From contig JAINDK010000052.1 of NCBI GenBank assembly GCA_019931185.1, forward strand, positions 1-64,000: a DNA stretch of 64,000 nt, read 5' to 3'. The DNA comes from Bryobacter sp. CoA8 C33. Its GTDB lineage: Bacteria; Acidobacteriota; Terriglobia; Bryobacterales; Bryobacteraceae. The notes under the pieces were generated by a model. The model searched no databases and was not told the origin of the DNA. It worked only from the letters and a program-made list of their open reading frames with translations. Position numbers and translations under genes: made by a program. Positions 28,342 to 36,280 of this stretch are shown in pieces (position 1 is the stretch's first letter; every line of letters begins with the position of its first letter).

Positions 28342-29406
28342 TTAGCGCCCGGGGACGAGCACTCCTTCTCGGATCTCGTCCGTGGCCCGCTGAATCACCC
28401 GGTCTCCCTCGGCCAAGGCGCCGTTCACTTCCACCAATTCCCCTTGAACGGCGCCCCGCCGCACTGAGACATACCGAGCCTTACCCTGTTCCACTTTAAT
28501 CACAAAGGTCCGCTCGGTGTTGGAGGCGACGGCCGTAACCGGAACCAGCAATGAATTCTGGGCGCTGCGCAACGGCCACTTGACTTCGGCATACATTCCA
28601 GGGGCTAGCGTTCCGGCCCCGTTGGCGGCCTCCAGTTCCACTGCCATCGTACGAGTAACCGGCTCAAGAGTGCGCGCCGCACGACTGACGATGCCGCCAA
28701 AGGTCTCCCCCGGCGCCGCGCTCACCACAAAGTTCACGCGCTGGCCCATCTTCACGCTCCCGGTATAATTCTCCGGCACGGCCACCACCACGCGAAGCCG
28801 TCCGAGTTGCTCCAGCTGAACAATCGGCCCCGCGCCAGGCCCCACCATGCCTCCCGGATGCAGCATCCGCTCGGTAATCACCCCGTCAAATGGCGCCAGA
28901 ACAGTCAGATACGCCGCCATCTCTTCGATTGCCTTCAGACGGGCCAATGCTGCTTCACGTGACAGATCCAGCGCCGCCACGGCAGCCTCGCCCGCTCTTA
29001 CAGCTTCTTCCGCTTGCAACAGTTCATTAGCCGCCACCGCACCCGCGGTTTGGCTCGCCAACTTCAGCCGCCGCGCCGTGCTTCCGGCGGCCTGCAGCCG
29101 CGCCCGCGCTTCGGTGGTTTGCGCGGCAAACGCGGCGGCTTGTGCGCGGGCCTCAGCCGCTTGCGCAGCCCACTCCGGCGCATCGATGCTCGCCAGACGC
29201 TGCCCTGCCTTGACCACGCTCCCCCGGTCCACCTCCACCGTCCGCAGGTAGCCAGCAATTCGCGCCATCACCGCCGTCGCCTGATAGGGGGCAATTTCGG
29301 CGGTCAACGTCACGAAGCGCTCCACCGGCTTGGCCGTCACTGCCACCGTCGATAGGCTCTGGGCCTCAAGCCCTGCAATCAGCGCCAAACTCCACATCCA
29401 CTTCAT
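28342..29406 (-). CDS. RND efflux periplasmic adaptor (MFP)
   Basis: 354 aa. Signal peptide MKWMWSLALIAGLEAQ, then lipoyl half-motifs (VMARIAGYLRTVEVDRGSVVKAGQRLASID), an alpha-helical hairpin rich in Ala (AAEARAQAAAF to about residue 150), and the matching second lipoyl half (LTVLAPFDGVITER) with beta-barrel and membrane-proximal domains. Together with the next two genes it makes a tripartite exporter. The ATG at 29406 overlaps the RND stop (ATGA); the longer upstream frame is a shadow of the RND gene. Confidence 0.9.
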   Translation of the reverse strand: MKWMWSLALIAGLEAQSLSTVAVTAKPVERFVTLTAEIAPYQATAVMARIAGYLRTVEVDRGSVVKAGQRLASIDAPEWAAQAAEARAQAAAFAAQTTEARARLQAAGSTARRLKLASQTAGAVAANELLQAEEAVRAGEAAVAALDLSREAALARLKAIEEMAAYLTVLAPFDGVITERMLHPGGMVGPGAGPIVQLEQLGRLRVVVAVPENYTGSVKMGQRVNFVVSAAPGETFGGIVSRAARTLEPVTRTMAVELEAANGAGTLAPGMYAEVKWPLRSAQNSLLVPVTAVASNTERTFVIKVEQGKARYVSVRRGAVQGELVEVNGALAEGDRVIQRATDEIREGVLVPGR

Positions 29407-32400
29407 GCTCGCTTCTCCCGCCGCAAGATGCTGTACAGCGCCGGCAAAACTACCAGCGTTGCTATTGTGCCCGTCAATAATCCACCCATCACCGCCCTTC
29501 CCAGAGGCGTCGTCTGGCTGCTGCCTTCTCCCCACCCCAAAGCCATCGGCGCCACACCGGCCAGCATCGCCGTCGCCGTCATCAAAATCGCCCGCAATCG
29601 CGCCCGCCCCGCCTCCGCCACGGTCCCGCCAGCTTCGGCGAAGCTCACAAACAGGATCGCATTTGCTATCGCGATGCCAAGCGCCATAATTGCCCCCAAG
29701 TAGCTCTGTATGTTGATGGTCCCGCCCGTCAACCAGAGGGCCATCAACGCCCCGCACAGGATACCCGGGCTCATCAACAACACCACACCCGCCAGGCGGA
29801 AGCTTTGAAACGCCGCTGCCAGCAAAAGAAAAACACTCCCCGCCGCTATCCACAGCCCCGTCTCCAAGCCGTTCACTGTCTCCCGCAAGGGGACTGCTTG
29901 GCCCTGTATTTGCACCGTGATTCCCCGCGGCGGCGCTCCGGCCCGCGCGACAGCAGTCTCAATTTGCGGTAGCGCCCGCCCCAAGGTTATCCCATGCAAA
30001 TTCGCTGCCACGCTCACCAACTTCTGGCCGTTGAAGCGCTCCACCACACCCATCATTCTGCCGTTCTTCATTGATACGATTTCCCCCGCCAGCGGCTGAC
30101 GGCTACCGTTCTTGCCGAGGTTTAGCCCCGCTAGATCCTCCACCGATTGCACCCGATTGGGGGGCAACTCCACTTGCACCTGAAAAGCGTTACCACTAGC
30201 CGGATCACGCCAATAGCTCGGCTCAATAAACCGGCTCGAACTCGTTGCCGCGACTAGACTCCGGGTTACTTCGAGCATGCTCAGCCCATGCTGACCCGCC
30301 CGGTCGCGGTCGATCCTCAGATCGAGCGTCGGATAGTCGTCAGGTTGCTGAATTTGCAGATCCCGCAAAAATGGCAGGCGCCGCATTTCCCGCTCGAGTC
30401 GGCGGGCGAATTCATAATCGGCCGCGAGACTCGGCCCCACCGCCAGCACCCGCACTGGCGTTGGCGAACCCAGGCTCATCACTTGGCTGATGATCTCCCC
30501 GCCTTCGAATAACACTTTCACACGCGGCATCCCGCTGGCAATCCGTTGCCGGATTTTCTCCTGCGCCTCCTCTAGATTGATCCCCCTGCCCGTCTTGATC
30601 GCCATGGTCAGTACTGCCTCATGCGGTCCGGTCGTGAACAGGTGTATCAGATTGACGGGATAACTCGAGGCATGGGCACCCACGAAACTGGTCGTCACCT
30701 CCACGGCCTCCGGCCCTACTGCTTCGCGCATCTGCCGCAGCGCCTCGAGCGCCAGCAATTCGGTTCTCTCAATGCGCGTTCCCGTCGGAGCAAAAAGCCG
30801 CATGCGGATCTGCCGCGCTTCGCCGGCCGGAAAAATCTCAAGCCCCAAGCGCTCCGGCAGCCAAAACAAACCGAGCCCGCAAATCAGCAGATACGCCAGC
30901 ACCACGCCATAACGCCATGCCACGATCTGATCCACCAGCCGCGCGTATGCCCGGCGATATGCCGGCTCCCGGATTTCGCCCCGCGGCCTCAGCCACCTTG
31001 ACGCCAGCACCGGCACCAGCGTACTGGAGAGCAAATACGACATTACCATCGCAAAGCCCACGGCCATTGCCAACGGCCCGAACAATTGCTTCCCCGCCCC
31101 GGTCATGAAATACGCAGGCAGAAACACACCCAGAATCGCGATCAGACTCAACAGCCGTGCCGCCGCCGTCCGTTGGCAAGCTTCCTTTACGGCCGACGCC
31201 ACGGCCACGCCTTCCCGCAACGAAGCGTTGATGTTTTCGATCTCCACCGTCGCCTCGTCCACAAGCACTCCGATCGCCAGCGTCAAGCCAGCCAGCGTCA
31301 TCAGATTAATCGTCTGCCCAGTCGCCCAAAGAGCAATCACCGCCCCCAGCAACGACACTGGAATCGTTGTGATCACAATCATTGCCGAGCGGGGATCGCG
31401 CAGGAACACCAGCACCATCACGCCTGTCAGCAGTGCGCCCAACAACCCCTCCCGCAACAGATTTCCAAGCGACTGCTCGACCACTGGCGTCTGATCGAGT
31501 TCGATCGATACCGACACATCCTCAGGCACCACCTTCTGGAAGGACGGCAGCGCCTCCCTTACCCGCCGCATTACTTCGAGCGTGGAGGCATCAGCGCGCT
31601 TTGTAATTGGTATGTACACCGTGCGCTTTCCGTTTACATGTGCGTAAGCGGTAAGAATATCGCTACCATTTTCAACCATGGCCACATCGCGAAAATAGAC
31701 CGCCGGGCCGGACCCACCCCGCAGAGGCGCATTTGCCAGTTCGCTCAAGTCCCCGCCAATCGTGGCATTTGTTGACGCGATCCGCGTCAGATCCCCCGTT
31801 CGCACCACACCACTTGGCGCCACTACATTTGCCGCCGCCACGGCCCGGATCACCTCCTCCGGAGCCATCCCATACTGCCGTAACTTCTGCGGGTCCAATC
31901 GCACCAGGATCGTGCGTTGCGCCCCGCCAAACGGCGGTGGAGCCGACACGCCCGGCAACGTGGCAAACAGCGGTCTGACACGGTTGATCGCGAAATCCTG
32001 CATCTCCGCCGGAGATCTTGTCTGGCTGGAAAACACCAGTTGTCCGATCGCCACGCTGCCCGCGTCAAATCGTGTCACGAACGGCGGCGCCGCCCCGGGT
32101 GGCATGAATGCCCGCGCCCGGTTCGCATACCCCACCACTTCGCTCAGGGCCGCGCTCATATTCACTCCGGCATGAAACGTCACCTTGATCAGCGCGGCGC
32201 CCTGTACACTGCGCGACTCAATTTGCTTGACGCCCGCCACATACAGCAGGTGGTACTCGTAATAGTAGGTGGCAAATCCATCCATCTGCGCTGGATCGAG
32301 TCCACCGTAAGGTTGCGCAATGTAGATGGCCGGCTCTCCCACGTCCGGAAAGATGTCGACGGCCATGCGCTTCACCACCAAGGCAGCGCCGATCAGAATC

Positions 32401-32459
32401 GCCAGCACCGCGACATACACGGTTACGGGCCGGCCCAACGCGAATAGCACCAGCCTCAT
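29403..32459 (-). CDS. RND-family inner-membrane efflux transporter
   Basis: 1018 aa with the two-fold AcrB plan: TM1, porter domain, TM2-6, TM7, second porter domain and TM8-12. Conserved features include the GTINIQSYLGAIMALGIAIANAI segment, and in the first half GQTINLMTLAGLTLAIGVLVDEATVEIENI; the latter has an Asp of the proton relay (GVLVDEATVEIEN). Lack of a full HME Glu pattern and the sequence feel suggest an HAE/metal-like divergent RND pump; the cargo is not predictable. Translationally coupled to tolC upstream (ATGA) and the adaptor downstream. Confidence 0.93.
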   Translation of the reverse strand: MRLVLFALGRPVTVYVAVLAILIGAALVVKRMAVDIFPDVGEPAIYIAQPYGGLDPAQMDGFATYYYEYHLLYVAGVKQIESRSVQGAALIKVTFHAGVNMSAALSEVVGYANRARAFMPPGAAPPFVTRFDAGSVAIGQLVFSSQTRSPAEMQDFAINRVRPLFATLPGVSAPPPFGGAQRTILVRLDPQKLRQYGMAPEEVIRAVAAANVVAPSGVVRTGDLTRIASTNATIGGDLSELANAPLRGGSGPAVYFRDVAMVENGSDILTAYAHVNGKRTVYIPITKRADASTLEVMRRVREALPSFQKVVPEDVSVSIELDQTPVVEQSLGNLLREGLLGALLTGVMVLVFLRDPRSAMIVITTIPVSLLGAVIALWATGQTINLMTLAGLTLAIGVLVDEATVEIENINASLREGVAVASAVKEACQRTAAARLLSLIAILGVFLPAYFMTGAGKQLFGPLAMAVGFAMVMSYLLSSTLVPVLASRWLRPRGEIREPAYRRAYARLVDQIVAWRYGVVLAYLLICGLGLFWLPERLGLEIFPAGEARQIRMRLFAPTGTRIERTELLALEALRQMREAVGPEAVEVTTSFVGAHASSYPVNLIHLFTTGPHEAVLTMAIKTGRGINLEEAQEKIRQRIASGMPRVKVLFEGGEIISQVMSLGSPTPVRVLAVGPSLAADYEFARRLEREMRRLPFLRDLQIQQPDDYPTLDLRIDRDRAGQHGLSMLEVTRSLVAATSSSRFIEPSYWRDPASGNAFQVQVELPPNRVQSVEDLAGLNLGKNGSRQPLAGEIVSMKNGRMMGVVERFNGQKLVSVAANLHGITLGRALPQIETAVARAGAPPRGITVQIQGQAVPLRETVNGLETGLWIAAGSVFLLLAAAFQSFRLAGVVLLMSPGILCGALMALWLTGGTINIQSYLGAIMALGIAIANAILFVSFAEAGGTVAEAGRARLRAILMTATAMLAGVAPMALGWGEGSSQTTPLGRAVMGGLLTGTIATLVVLPALYSILRREKRA

Positions 32460-33808
32460 GGGATCGGCCCTTCCACTCGCGCCAGAAAATCCGTCAGGTC
32501 TCCCTCCGCCACCGCCACAGCCAACCGCGCGCGCCAGATGCCCAAGCGCGCCAGCCGGTCATCCACTTCCGCCTGCAAAAGACTGCGCTCGGCATCCGCT
32601 ACTTCCGAAATGGAACTCAGCCCAGCCCGGTAGCGAGCCTCGGCCTGCGCCCTCGCCTCGCCGGCCGCTTTCCATTGAGTGGGCGTATTGCCCGAAACTC
32701 GCTTGGCTGCTTCAAATTGCGCCAGCGCCCGGTTTTTCTGCGCCTCCAGTTCACGGCGAAGTTGCTCCTGACGCGATTGCTCGGCCCGGCCGCGTGCCGC
32801 TTCGATCTCTTTGCGAATCCGCAGTCCGGGCAGGTCCATCAATGAGTAAGTCATCGTGAAACCAAGACCCCAGTTATAAATATTGGGCCCCAATCCGCTC
32901 CAAGCCCCACCGGTCGTGAAATCGGCGTTCGCTCCCGTCCCTCGCGCATAAAGGGTCGCCTGCGCGTTGAATCGGGGATAGAAGCTGCGCTCGATCACTC
33001 GCATGCGCGCCAGCGATTCTTTTTGCGCGAGCTGCAATTCCATCATTGCCGGATGCGTCTTGACTGCTGCTCCCGACTCCACGGAAACGGCTTCGAGCAG
33101 CCTGCCCCGCTGCAGTCGCAGCCCCCCCGGCGGAGTCCCCGCCAGGAACTGTGCGAGACTCGCCCGCGCCATGACCACGGCCGCCTCAGCCTGCGCCACG
33201 CCGCTCGCCGCCTGCGCCTGTTCGGCCTCAAGCCGCGAACGGTCGAGTCCCGGACGCAGTCCACTGTCCACCAGCGCGCCAACCGCCGGCAGCAGCTTGC
33301 CGATACGATCCACCACCCCTTGAGCCGCCACAAGTGACTCCTCGGCGGCAATCACCGTCAAGAATGCATCCGCCACCAGCGCCGCCATCTCAAAGCGAGT
33401 CCTCTCCAGGCTCGCCGCCGCCCGCTCCCGCGTCACTTCCGATACCGACGTATTCGCCCGCCGCAACCCGAAATCGAAGGGTTCCCAACTCACCAGAAAA
33501 CCGGTTGCCGTCCCCCATACGTTCGTCCCGGCATTGGCCGCCAGGGGCGGGCCCGAAATGGGCGAAATCACTTGTTGCTGCAGCAACATTCCATACACGT
33601 TATTCCGGGTGGCGCGGTTGACTTGCGCAATTGCATCCGCCTTCGGCAGGTATGCTAGGCGCGCCTGCCGCACCCCGGCCGCCGCCGCCCGCACCTGTTC
33701 CTCATTGACCCGGATCGACGGATACAGTTCCATTGCTTGCCGCACCGCCTCGGCCAGCTTCAATTCCTGCCCGCTCACCCCCGGCGCCCCCAGCGCCAGC
33801 AGCAGCAT
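32456..33808 (-). CDS. TolC-family outer-membrane efflux protein
   Basis: 450 aa. Two OEP repeats of mostly helical sequence (LAEAVRQAMELYPSIRVNEEQVRAA..., LAQKESLARMRVIERSFYPRF) and the C-terminal tail ending in LTDFLARVEGPIP. It forms the outer-membrane channel of the exporter. I start at ATG 33808 because it overlaps the lpxA stop (TGATG); this leaves a short leader (MLLLALGAPGVSGQ). The frame stays open upstream to 33898 within lpxA, so a longer leader starting elsewhere cannot be excluded. Confidence 0.88.
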   Translation of the reverse strand: MLLLALGAPGVSGQELKLAEAVRQAMELYPSIRVNEEQVRAAAAGVRQARLAYLPKADAIAQVNRATRNNVYGMLLQQQVISPISGPPLAANAGTNVWGTATGFLVSWEPFDFGLRRANTSVSEVTRERAAASLERTRFEMAALVADAFLTVIAAEESLVAAQGVVDRIGKLLPAVGALVDSGLRPGLDRSRLEAEQAQAASGVAQAEAAVVMARASLAQFLAGTPPGGLRLQRGRLLEAVSVESGAAVKTHPAMMELQLAQKESLARMRVIERSFYPRFNAQATLYARGTGANADFTTGGAWSGLGPNIYNWGLGFTMTYSLMDLPGLRIRKEIEAARGRAEQSRQEQLRRELEAQKNRALAQFEAAKRVSGNTPTQWKAAGEARAQAEARYRAGLSSISEVADAERSLLQAEVDDRLARLGIWRARLAVAVAEGDLTDFLARVEGPIP

Positions 33809-34593
33809 CAACCGCGCGCAATTCCCCGTTTGCTCGCGCGCACGAAGCGAGCCATGTGCCCGGCCAGCGGATGGCCGACTGCTTCCAATCGTTGGCATGC
33901 CTCTTCCTTCTTCAATCCGCTCCGGTACAGAATCCGAAAGCAGTTTTTCACTATACCAACCTCCTCCGCACTGAATCCCGCCCGCCGCAGGCCCACCATG
34001 TTGATTCCCTCCACTTCGACATCAAATTTCGAGTAGAGAAAAAACGGAGGCAAATCCGAGTTCACTCGCGTATTACCCCCCACCATCGCCAGCCGCCCTA
34101 TTTTCGAAAATTGATGCACTACCACACCGCCGGAAATAAATGCCTGATCCTCGACTTCCACATAGCCCGCCAACAGCGCGCAACTCGCCACGACAATCTG
34201 ATTGCCGAGGCGGCAATCGTGTGCGATGTGACCCGAGGTCATGATGAAGTTATGGTCCCCAATTACGGTCTCCGCCTCCGGTTTCGTCGCGCGGGAAACG
34301 GTGAAGTGCTCACGAATCTTGTTAAAGTTACCAATTCGCAGATAGCTCCGTTCCCCTTTGAAGTTCTTGTCTAGCGGATCCGTCCCCAGCACCGTGCCGG
34401 AGCTAATTTCATTGCCCTCCCCCATCTCCGTCCAGCGCTTCACATAGACGTATGGCTCCAGTACGCACCCTGGGCCGATACGAGTATCCGCTTCGATCAC
34501 GCAATATTCGCCAATCACGCATCGCGGCCCAACCTCAGCCTCGGGATGAATTCTTGCAGTCGGGGCCACACACGCCCCCGGGTCTATGGGCAT
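33808..34593 (-). CDS. lpxA: UDP-N-acetylglucosamine acyltransferase
   Basis: 261 aa left-handed beta-helix (hexapeptide repeat) enzyme for the first lipid A step, transfer of a 3-hydroxyacyl chain from ACP to UDP-GlcNAc. The catalytic segment GHIAHDC (about residue 120) keeps both histidines; the position of the E. coli LAGH histidine is Tyr here (LAGYVEVED). The C-terminal helical part (GLRRAGFSAEEVGIVKNCF) is standard. It heads a coupled set lpxA-tolC-RND-adaptor. The start has no Shine-Dalgarno; CATAAT stands exactly at -12 to -7, implying a leaderless mRNA. Confidence 0.93.
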   Translation of the reverse strand: MPIDPGACVAPTARIHPEAEVGPRCVIGEYCVIEADTRIGPGCVLEPYVYVKRWTEMGEGNEISSGTVLGTDPLDKNFKGERSYLRIGNFNKIREHFTVSRATKPEAETVIGDHNFIMTSGHIAHDCRLGNQIVVASCALLAGYVEVEDQAFISGGVVVHQFSKIGRLAMVGGNTRVNSDLPPFFLYSKFDVEVEGINMVGLRRAGFSAEEVGIVKNCFRILYRSGLKKEEACQRLEAVGHPLAGHMARFVRASKRGIARG

Positions 34594-34605
34594 AGTTAAA
34601 TTATG
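34591..34605. promoter_or_regulatory. Mirror-image divergent leaderless promoters of lpxA and lpxD
   Basis: The 15 bases CATAGTTAAATTATG contain both start codons and both -10 boxes. For lpxD, CATAGT (34591-34596) ends 6 bases before its ATG; for lpxA, CATAAT (34605-34600, minus) ends 6 bases before its ATG. Each -10 box includes the complement of the other gene's start codon. The gap between the genes is 9 bases, leaving no room for a Shine-Dalgarno. -35 boxes would lie inside the opposite gene; only a weak TTGAGC for lpxA (34626-34621) is visible. Confidence 0.65.
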
Positions 34606-35673
34606 CGCTTGGATGAATTAGCTCAACGCCTCGGCCTCGAACTGCAAGGCTCCCCCTCGATCATCGTGAACGCCGCGGCCGAATTGGAATCGGCCGGCGC
34701 CGCCGATATCGCCTTCGTCGGCCATCGTAAGTTCTTCGCCGCCGCCGCCCGCAGCGCTGCCGCCTGCCTCATCGTGCCGCCTGACTATCCTGAGTCCTCC
34801 CGTGCTCTGCTTCGCGCAATAGATCCCCGCGCCAGCTTCGCTGCTGCCTTGCGACTGCTTTACCCGCCCCCATCGCCCCCGCCCGGTATCCACCCCTCCG
34901 CCATCATCGACCCCTCCGCCCGAATTGGCAACGGTGTCTCCATCGGGCCGCAATCGGTCATCGAAGCGGATGTCGAGATCGGTTCCAATTCCGTGATCGG
35001 CTCGCATTGTTCGCTCGGCCGCGGCGTCCGCCTTGGCCCCGGCGCCAGGCTTCACCCGCGAGTCACCATCTACCCGGGTGTTTCCATTGGCGCCCGAGTC
35101 ATTTTGCATTCCGGTGTCGTACTCGGCGCCGACGGCTTTGGCTTCGCCCCCGTCGCGGGCCGCTGGGAAAAATTCCCTCAAGTCGGCGGCCTCACTCTGG
35201 GTGACGATGTCGAACTGGGCGCCAATACTTGCATTGATCGCGCCGCGCTCGGCCTCACCACGATCGGCAACGGCGTCAAGCTCGACAACATGGTCCACAT
35301 CGCCCACAATTGCCGCATCGAAGATCATGTCGTCATCGCCGCCCAAACCGGCCTGTCCGGCGGTGTCTCCGTGGGCCATCACGCCATCATCGGCGGCCAG
35401 GTCGGCATTGGCGACAAGGCGCGTATTGACAGTGGCGCGATCCTTGGCTCCGGCTGTGGTGTTCTGACCTCGAAGATTGTTCGCGCCGGAGAACCGGTCT
35501 GGGGTACGCCCGCCCGTCCGCTCAAGGAGTATTTGGCGCAGCTGGCTCAGTTGGCGCGGCTTCCCCAAATGCGGCAAGAACTTCAAGCCTTGCGGGCTCT
35601 GCTGTCATCGCCAGCGGCGCCGCCGGAATCTCAATCAGCAGTTCCAGCCGCGCCGGCTTCAAAAGATTCCTGA
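34603..35673 (+). CDS. lpxD: UDP-3-O-(3-hydroxyacyl)glucosamine N-acyltransferase
   Basis: 356 aa. N-terminal uridine-binding domain (residues 1-100), long hexapeptide-repeat left-handed helix (105-300) with the catalytic His in NMVHIAHNC (about residue 230), and a C-terminal helix (LARLPQMRQELQALRALL). It performs the third lipid A step. The final 152 bases lie opposite the 3' end of a convergent histidine kinase gene; the helix up to about 35610 is clearly native, so at least part of the overlap is genuine. Confidence 0.93.
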   Translation: MRLDELAQRLGLELQGSPSIIVNAAAELESAGAADIAFVGHRKFFAAAARSAAACLIVPPDYPESSRALLRAIDPRASFAAALRLLYPPPSPPPGIHPSAIIDPSARIGNGVSIGPQSVIEADVEIGSNSVIGSHCSLGRGVRLGPGARLHPRVTIYPGVSIGARVILHSGVVLGADGFGFAPVAGRWEKFPQVGGLTLGDDVELGANTCIDRAALGLTTIGNGVKLDNMVHIAHNCRIEDHVVIAAQTGLSGGVSVGHHAIIGGQVGIGDKARIDSGAILGSGCGVLTSKIVRAGEPVWGTPARPLKEYLAQLAQLARLPQMRQELQALRALLSSPAAPPESQSAVPAAPASKDS

Positions 35674-36280
35674 AAACGCTGGCTGCGTTCCGCTCGGCCA
35701 GCCGCTCAATACAATCGAGCGTCAGTTGTGCCCCCGCTGGCCACTCCAGGTCTTCGCCGCCGCTGCCCGCGCACCATGCACGCAACAAAACGACTCCACC
35801 CGGCAGGCTTCTCGTGGCAATTCCAGCCGCTGTTCCCGTCATGGCCAGCTCACGCATCAACCGCATCACCGCACGCACCATCCGCTGCCCTTGGCGCACA
35901 TCGAACAAGACCGGGGACGCGCTCAAATCCAGATTCCAGCCTCCGCGCGATCCTTCCTGTTGCCATTGCTCGAGCACATACTCGGTCACAATCTCATCAA
36001 GGTCGACAATCTCCGGTCGAGTCTCCACGCCACTCTCAATCGCCAGTGCGTCCTCAATCATCCAGCCGCTCTGCTCCACCATCTGCCGTACCCGCGTCAA
36101 TTGCTCTTTCACGCGCGGGTCGGCTTGCGGCAGAGATAGCTCGAGATAGTACGCGATAGACTCGATGGTGCTCAACGGCTGGCGCAACTCGTGCGCGAGA
36201 TTCACCAGAAGGGTTTCTTTCAATTGTGGCCTCAGGGGTGAAAACAGGTCTTGTGCCGGGGGAGCATTGTCAGTATACAT
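35522..36280 (-). CDS. Orphan histidine-kinase-like protein with degenerate ATPase half
   Basis: 252 aa. A HisKA dimerisation domain with H-box LVNLAHELRQPLSTIES (His30) is clear. The part that should be the HATPase_c domain lacks a readable N-box Asn (it reads RMVRAVMRLMRELAMT) and lacks DxGxG/GxG loops, so autophosphorylation is doubtful. No transmembrane segment and no response regulator adjacent. The 3' end overlaps lpxD by 152 bases, and the 5' end is 6 bases from a divergent gene. It could be a scaffold or phosphatase-like protein. Confidence 0.7.
   Translation of the reverse strand: MYTDNAPPAQDLFSPLRPQLKETLLVNLAHELRQPLSTIESIAYYLELSLPQADPRVKEQLTRVRQMVEQSGWMIEDALAIESGVETRPEIVDLDEIVTEYVLEQWQQEGSRGGWNLDLSASPVLFDVRQGQRMVRAVMRLMRELAMTGTAAGIATRSLPGGVVLLRAWCAGSGGEDLEWPAGAQLTLDCIERLAERNAASVFRNLLKPARLELLIEIPAAPLAMTAEPARLEVLAAFGEAAPTEPAAPNTP

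Follow-up and report, generated by a model that had tools for sequence, protein, structure and literature searches.

The window analysed here, a stretch of 64,000 nt taken as a whole, comes from a genome of Bryobacter, a soil bacterium of the Acidobacteriota, and contains two divergent genes whose starts lie 9 bp apart. On the minus strand, a paralogue of lpxA (33808..34593) encodes a UDP-GlcNAc O-acyltransferase of 261 aa and starts at the CAT of 34591-34593; on the plus strand, a paralogue of lpxD (34603..35673) encodes a UDP-3-O-acyl-glucosamine N-acyltransferase of 356 aa and starts at the ATG of 34603. The two start codons and the intergenic gap between them, AGTTAAATT (34594..34602), together read CATAGTTAAATTATG (window 34591-34605), and the distance from ATG to ATG is 10 bp. 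Each end of this segment can be read as a -10 element for the gene at the other end: CATAAT (34600..34605, minus strand) is the predicted box of lpxA and CATAGT (34591..34596, plus strand) that of lpxD, each hexamer beginning 12 bases upstream of the start it would serve. The lpxA box contains the lpxD start codon and the lpxD box contains the lpxA start codon; on this point, as on the 9-bp divergence, a preliminary description of this DNA was exact. A Shine-Dalgarno (SD) site is found at neither start. Two further features overlap the junction: a conserved block of 26 bp, GGGTCTATGGGCATAGTTAAATTATG (34580..34605), which runs from codon 6 of lpxA through the start codon of lpxD, and an inverted repeat read from the sequence over the lpxA start, CTATG-GG-CATAG (34584..34595).

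Both proteins pass the curated cut-offs of their families, LpxA with 273.4 bits against TIGR01852 (cut-off 231.05) and LpxD with 309 bits against TIGR01853 (cut-off 242.5). Solved LpxA structures are matched with E<=1e-37, the GHIAH region being aligned, and solved LpxD structures with E=2e-67. Alignment with these solved homologues begins near the first residues, supporting both start calls, and homologue alignment rules out alternative starts further downstream in either gene; the lpxA start has the same position in every relative aligned. The genome contains two lpxA, two lpxD, one lpxC and one lpxB. The second lpxA (39% identical; G000:C67:73246-74019, L008 7241-8020) lies on another contig in a co-directional cluster, fabZ-lpxA-lpxI, whose outer genes we take to be fabZ and lpxI from the starts of their proteins, judged by eye. 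This canonical-looking cluster leaves uncontradicted the earlier remark that such genes are usually co-directional. The second lpxD (32% identical; G000:C62:16531-17529, L009 7532-8530) lies on a third contig, and nearly all relatives in the class keep both lpxD types. The divergent genes are a second, old pair and not the only lipid A acyltransferases: with a second lpxA and a second lpxD present, they are not the sole source of either activity. As to their neighbours, TolC-like and RND-pump genes (window 29403-33898) follow lpxA on the same strand, an order that recurs in congeners and in some members of the family; the longest TolC frame, which runs into lpxA, is probably overextended. Downstream of lpxD, a convergent HisKA-like gene (35522-36280, minus strand) overlaps its 3' end by 152 bp (window 35522-35673), and a homologue of this gene lies near lpxD in the other congeners.

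The boxes were scored with a -10 matrix trained, under a -10 prior, on the non-SD, first-in-operon genes of a congener (G006); the promoters it was trained on are predicted, not mapped, and the genome statistics draw on 1.2 Mb from G006 plus about 0.37 Mb from G000. An unconstrained EM motif search had returned a Shine-Dalgarno motif instead of a -10. CATAAT of lpxA scores 5.1 bits, as do 0.16% of random positions, and CATAGT of lpxD 3.6 bits (0.9% of random positions); both score best at offset k=12 among the offsets 9-23 tested. Since the opposite ATG already dictates CAT, the fair chance is only 1.3% for lpxA and 7% for lpxD. CAT-N9-ATG occurs 14 times in the window against 14.1 expected, which is the chance level; a fuller pattern, CATARW-N3-ATTATG, composed after the site was seen, has one match in the window and none in 100 shuffles. 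In the 1.2 Mb of G006, TANNNT is most frequent at -12 relative to predicted ATG starts (24 against a background of 4.6), with a shoulder to -22. Leaderless genes amount on average to 13.3% in Acidobacteria, their signal lying about 12 bp ahead of the start (PMC3160421). The lpxA gene shows both marks of such genes, a -10 box about 12 bp upstream and no SD, and its CATAAT is the same hexamer in all congeners, a good box in every genome. The lpxD gene also lacks an SD; its box is fair here (CATAGT) and weak in six congeners (CATAAA, which lacks the T at -7 found in 97% of strict leaderless-like genes, a set itself selected by score). A hexamer abutting the lpxD ATG, TAGATT/TAAATT, was considered as a -10 and rejected, since its transcripts would lose the start codon. 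At the junction, neither a -35 nor an extended -10 could be recognised, nor was a sigma-70 -35/-10 pair, a terminator or an Rfam family found. Taken alone, these sequence statistics make a modest case; the comparative evidence makes a strong one.

Eight genomes of the genus were compared, in seven of which the junction is assembled. The gap is 9 bp in all seven, and six read AAATAGATT. The 26-bp block, GGGTCTATGGGCATAAATAGATTATG, is identical in six genomes and agrees at 23/26 positions in the source genome; no other copy within three mismatches was found in the eight genomes, a second match in G003 being most likely the overlap of two contig ends. The palindrome was rejected as the conserved feature: the other congeners lose its middle, and what is kept is the boxes and their spacing. 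All this is found between genomes that are far apart: identity is 75-84% for LpxA and 59-72% for LpxD, fourfold sites agree at 23-52% (23-43% in lpxA), and synonymous sites are saturated. Codons 2-5 of lpxA, which lie under the predicted lpxD promoter, read CCC ATA GAC CCG in each of the six genomes in this comparison; of 109 degenerate columns, only four hold an invariant codon, and three of these are codons 2, 3 and 5, the rare ATA among them. This freezing is confined to the clade with the 9-bp gap: the synonymous identity of codons 2-5 is 1.0 there, against 0.37-0.40 in relatives whose gaps measure 16-29 or 30-160 bp, where these codons vary above the gene average. Since lpxA is predicted to be leaderless in the wider-gap relatives too, being translated without a leader does not by itself account for the frozen codons; an overlap with the predicted lpxD promoter does. 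On the lpxD side, freezing is moderate (rank 6 of 298 windows) and weaker than on the lpxA side. The proposal of mirrored, overlapping leaderless promoters therefore draws support from the gap kept in 7/7 genomes, from boxes placed at -12 and from DNA frozen beyond the needs of the proteins.

The 26-bp block is longer than two -10 boxes require, a hint of a further element that might be an operator over the repeat TATG-GG-CATA. Carried further, this would make the frozen block mainly a protein site, bound by a regulator of both genes and laid over ordinary promoters, a reading that we consider unlikely. In its favour, 26 bp are identical in six genomes, TATG-GG-CATA is present in all congeners with TATGGGCATA inside the conserved block, and the conserved rare ATA at lpxA codon 3 forms one arm of the inverted repeat. 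However, the absence of other copies of the block within three mismatches in the eight genomes means that no regulon was found, and the outer arms are not spaced alike in all species: where the source genome has CTATG-GG-CATAG, the congeners have TCTAT-N8-ATAGA around the same inner TATGGGCATA.

The wider family places the 9-bp form in a history. We gathered 87 divergent lpxA-lpxD junctions, some records being present in both collections, and used the 73 distinct ones for tallies. In Bryobacteraceae, the gap of the divergent lpxA-lpxD pair is mostly 16-135 bp and holds a symmetric TATSATA box, which in its typical form reads as a -10 on both strands. The lpxA genes of the family lack an SD in all but two cases and have a -10 box that in most of them lies between -12 and -14. 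For lpxD, a gap below 30 bp goes with a box at -11 to -14 in 15/27 junctions and with an SD in only 3, and a gap of 30-150 bp with an SD in 19/26. The forms with a 9-bp gap make up one clade (support 100/100), whose sister has a 22-bp gap and a TATGATA box. Contraction of a wider symmetric-box divergent promoter is therefore the likely origin of the Bryobacter 10-bp form. Conservation of the gap, which the preliminary description had put forward as a check, is thus borne out in the genus, where the gap is fixed, but not across the family, where it varies while wide-gap forms keep a shared symmetric box.

These comparisons also bear on the lpxD side of the junction. The leaderless promoter could be directional and serve lpxA alone, the 9-bp gap being kept for lpxA's sake, while lpxD would be transcribed, with an SD-less leader, from an unrecognised promoter inside lpxA. 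The weak CATAAA of six genomes speaks for this, as does the reach of the frozen block into lpxA, a possible seat of such a promoter. Yet no -10-like hexamer upstream of lpxD at k=9-23 beats the one at k=12, and lpxD orthologues with slightly wider gaps have TATSAT at -11/-12; a promoter for lpxA only is, we think, quite unlikely.

The predicted design is not unique to lpxA and lpxD: conserved divergent pairs with gaps of 9, 10 and 11 bp share it. In G006, 12 of 143 divergent pairs have a gap of 0-29 bp, as called by a home-made gene caller that undercounts and missed the lpx junction itself. A pair with a DUF4953 metalloprotease has a gap of 10 bp in 8/8 genus genomes (L250-L256, L258), its junction reading CAT ACT GGYT ATT ATG or close to it, and a pair with a metallo-beta-lactamase fold has a gap of 11 bp wherever both genes were found (L260-L266, L268). 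In both, the boxes and opposite start codons are constant and most changes fall between them, the footprint that a bidirectional leaderless model predicts. A further pair, at CATAATCGCAATATG, has a gap of 9 bp in four Bryobacter genomes (L278, L300, L301, L302); one of its proteins presumably begins as a MATE-efflux type, a resemblance recognised by eye, and its partner is a protein of about 485 aa. Across the eight genus genomes, the pattern CATANT-N3-5-ANTATG has 41 matches against 12 for the reversed control. Two long open frames begin exactly at both ATGs in 7/8 of the genus sites sampled (L271-L278), and in 2/22 sites outside the genus. Two observations stand beside these counts. The family member G020 has 15 sites of this pattern against 5 for the control, the most of any genome searched. 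In G006 (L232 6728-8249), a Memo-like gene and a pterin-4a-carbinolamine dehydratase gene diverge across a gap of 19 bp, with a symmetric TATCATA box that resembles the lpx junctions of the family.

We propose to read the junction as a bidirectional leaderless promoter whose two start sites lie 10 bp apart, and put the probability of this reading at roughly 0.7. It is built on the sequence, the conserved gap, the synonymous freezing, the position of the boxes and the recurrence at other pairs; start sites, leaderless translation and competition between orientations are what it predicts. RNA polymerase would bind one stretch of about 30 bp in either of two orientations, one at a time, and would begin transcription at the A of each ATG, on opposite strands 10 bp apart, giving two mRNAs without leaders. 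Each start codon, read on the other strand as CAT, would supply positions -12 to -10 of the opposite -10 element, and with them the A at -11 and the T at -10, so that the gap would need just three suitable bases at each end. It is the 10-bp spacing that lets two start codons and two -10 boxes (CATAAT and CATAGT) share letters, and a usable -10 element is present on each strand of the shared DNA, the lpxD side being weak. The ancestor would have been a wider divergent promoter around a symmetric TATSATA box, whose contraction to the 10-bp geometry became fixed in Bryobacter and froze the first lpxA codons with it. More tentatively, and with the odds somewhat against it, mirrored leaderless promoters sharing start codons might be a recurrent, selected architecture of Bryobacter in which the two proteins are made in a ratio set by the orientation of the polymerase. 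On that same doubtful footing, translation start, transcription start and polymerase recognition might then form one inseparable element.

The preliminary description went further in function, suggesting that the two acyltransferases could be mutually exclusive or balanced at one site. Polymerase competition would then be the purpose of the junction, a switch or ratio-setter for steps one and three of lipid A synthesis. The geometry does allow one polymerase at a time, and competition between directions is real in E. coli when one of them is strongly activated; only then do bidirectional promoters compete there, the five tested showing no competition at basal level (PMC12825309). Exclusion at the lpx junction is therefore hypothetical, and the second copies of lpxA and lpxD weaken its purpose. 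Many wider-gap relatives, moreover, give lpxD an SD leader of its own, and the same layout joins unrelated genes. Competition as the function is thus very unlikely: the promoter reading of the preliminary description is largely supported and extended, and its regulatory reading is not supported. As for mere chance closeness of two genes with no functional junction, CAT-N9-ATG is indeed common by chance, but the exact gap in 7/7 genomes despite saturated synonymous sites, with codons frozen in the 9-bp clade only, makes it hardly credible.

Bidirectional promoters are common and have been found by start-site mapping; Warman et al. (2021) reportedly described them in prokaryotes including E. coli. 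Where leaderless genes abound, as in this genus, promoter geometry would be readable from start codons alone and traceable through evolution. The lpxA/lpxD junctions illustrate this with a wide family of symmetric-box promoters and a clade contracted to 10 bp, its neighbouring codons frozen. They also offer natural, testable cases of promoter DNA within two coding regions and, possibly, of genes for two enzymes of a single pathway competing for polymerase. In bidirectional promoters, transcription diverges from starts that lie 7-25 bp apart on the two strands, and the -10 is symmetric (PMC12825309; PMC10268837), and the start-site spacings preferred in E. coli are 18, 10 and 23 bp (PMC12825309). 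Assuming leaderless starts, the lpxA/lpxD junction matches the preferred spacing of 10 bp, and several family members come near 18-23. Unlike the E. coli promoters, both products are predicted to be leaderless, so that start codons, start sites and -10 boxes would share letters and the gene starts would reveal the spacing; PMC12825309 makes no mention of leaderless genes. With the leaderless genes of bacteria, known in Acidobacteria, lpxA shares a -10 signal about 12 bp upstream and the lack of an SD (PMC3160421), and lpxD the lack of an SD, with a weaker box at that position; here, two such predicted genes are interlocked back to back. Compared with the canonical lpxD-fabZ-lpxA operon, the enzyme families are the same, whereas this pair is divergent, without fabZ and a second copy.
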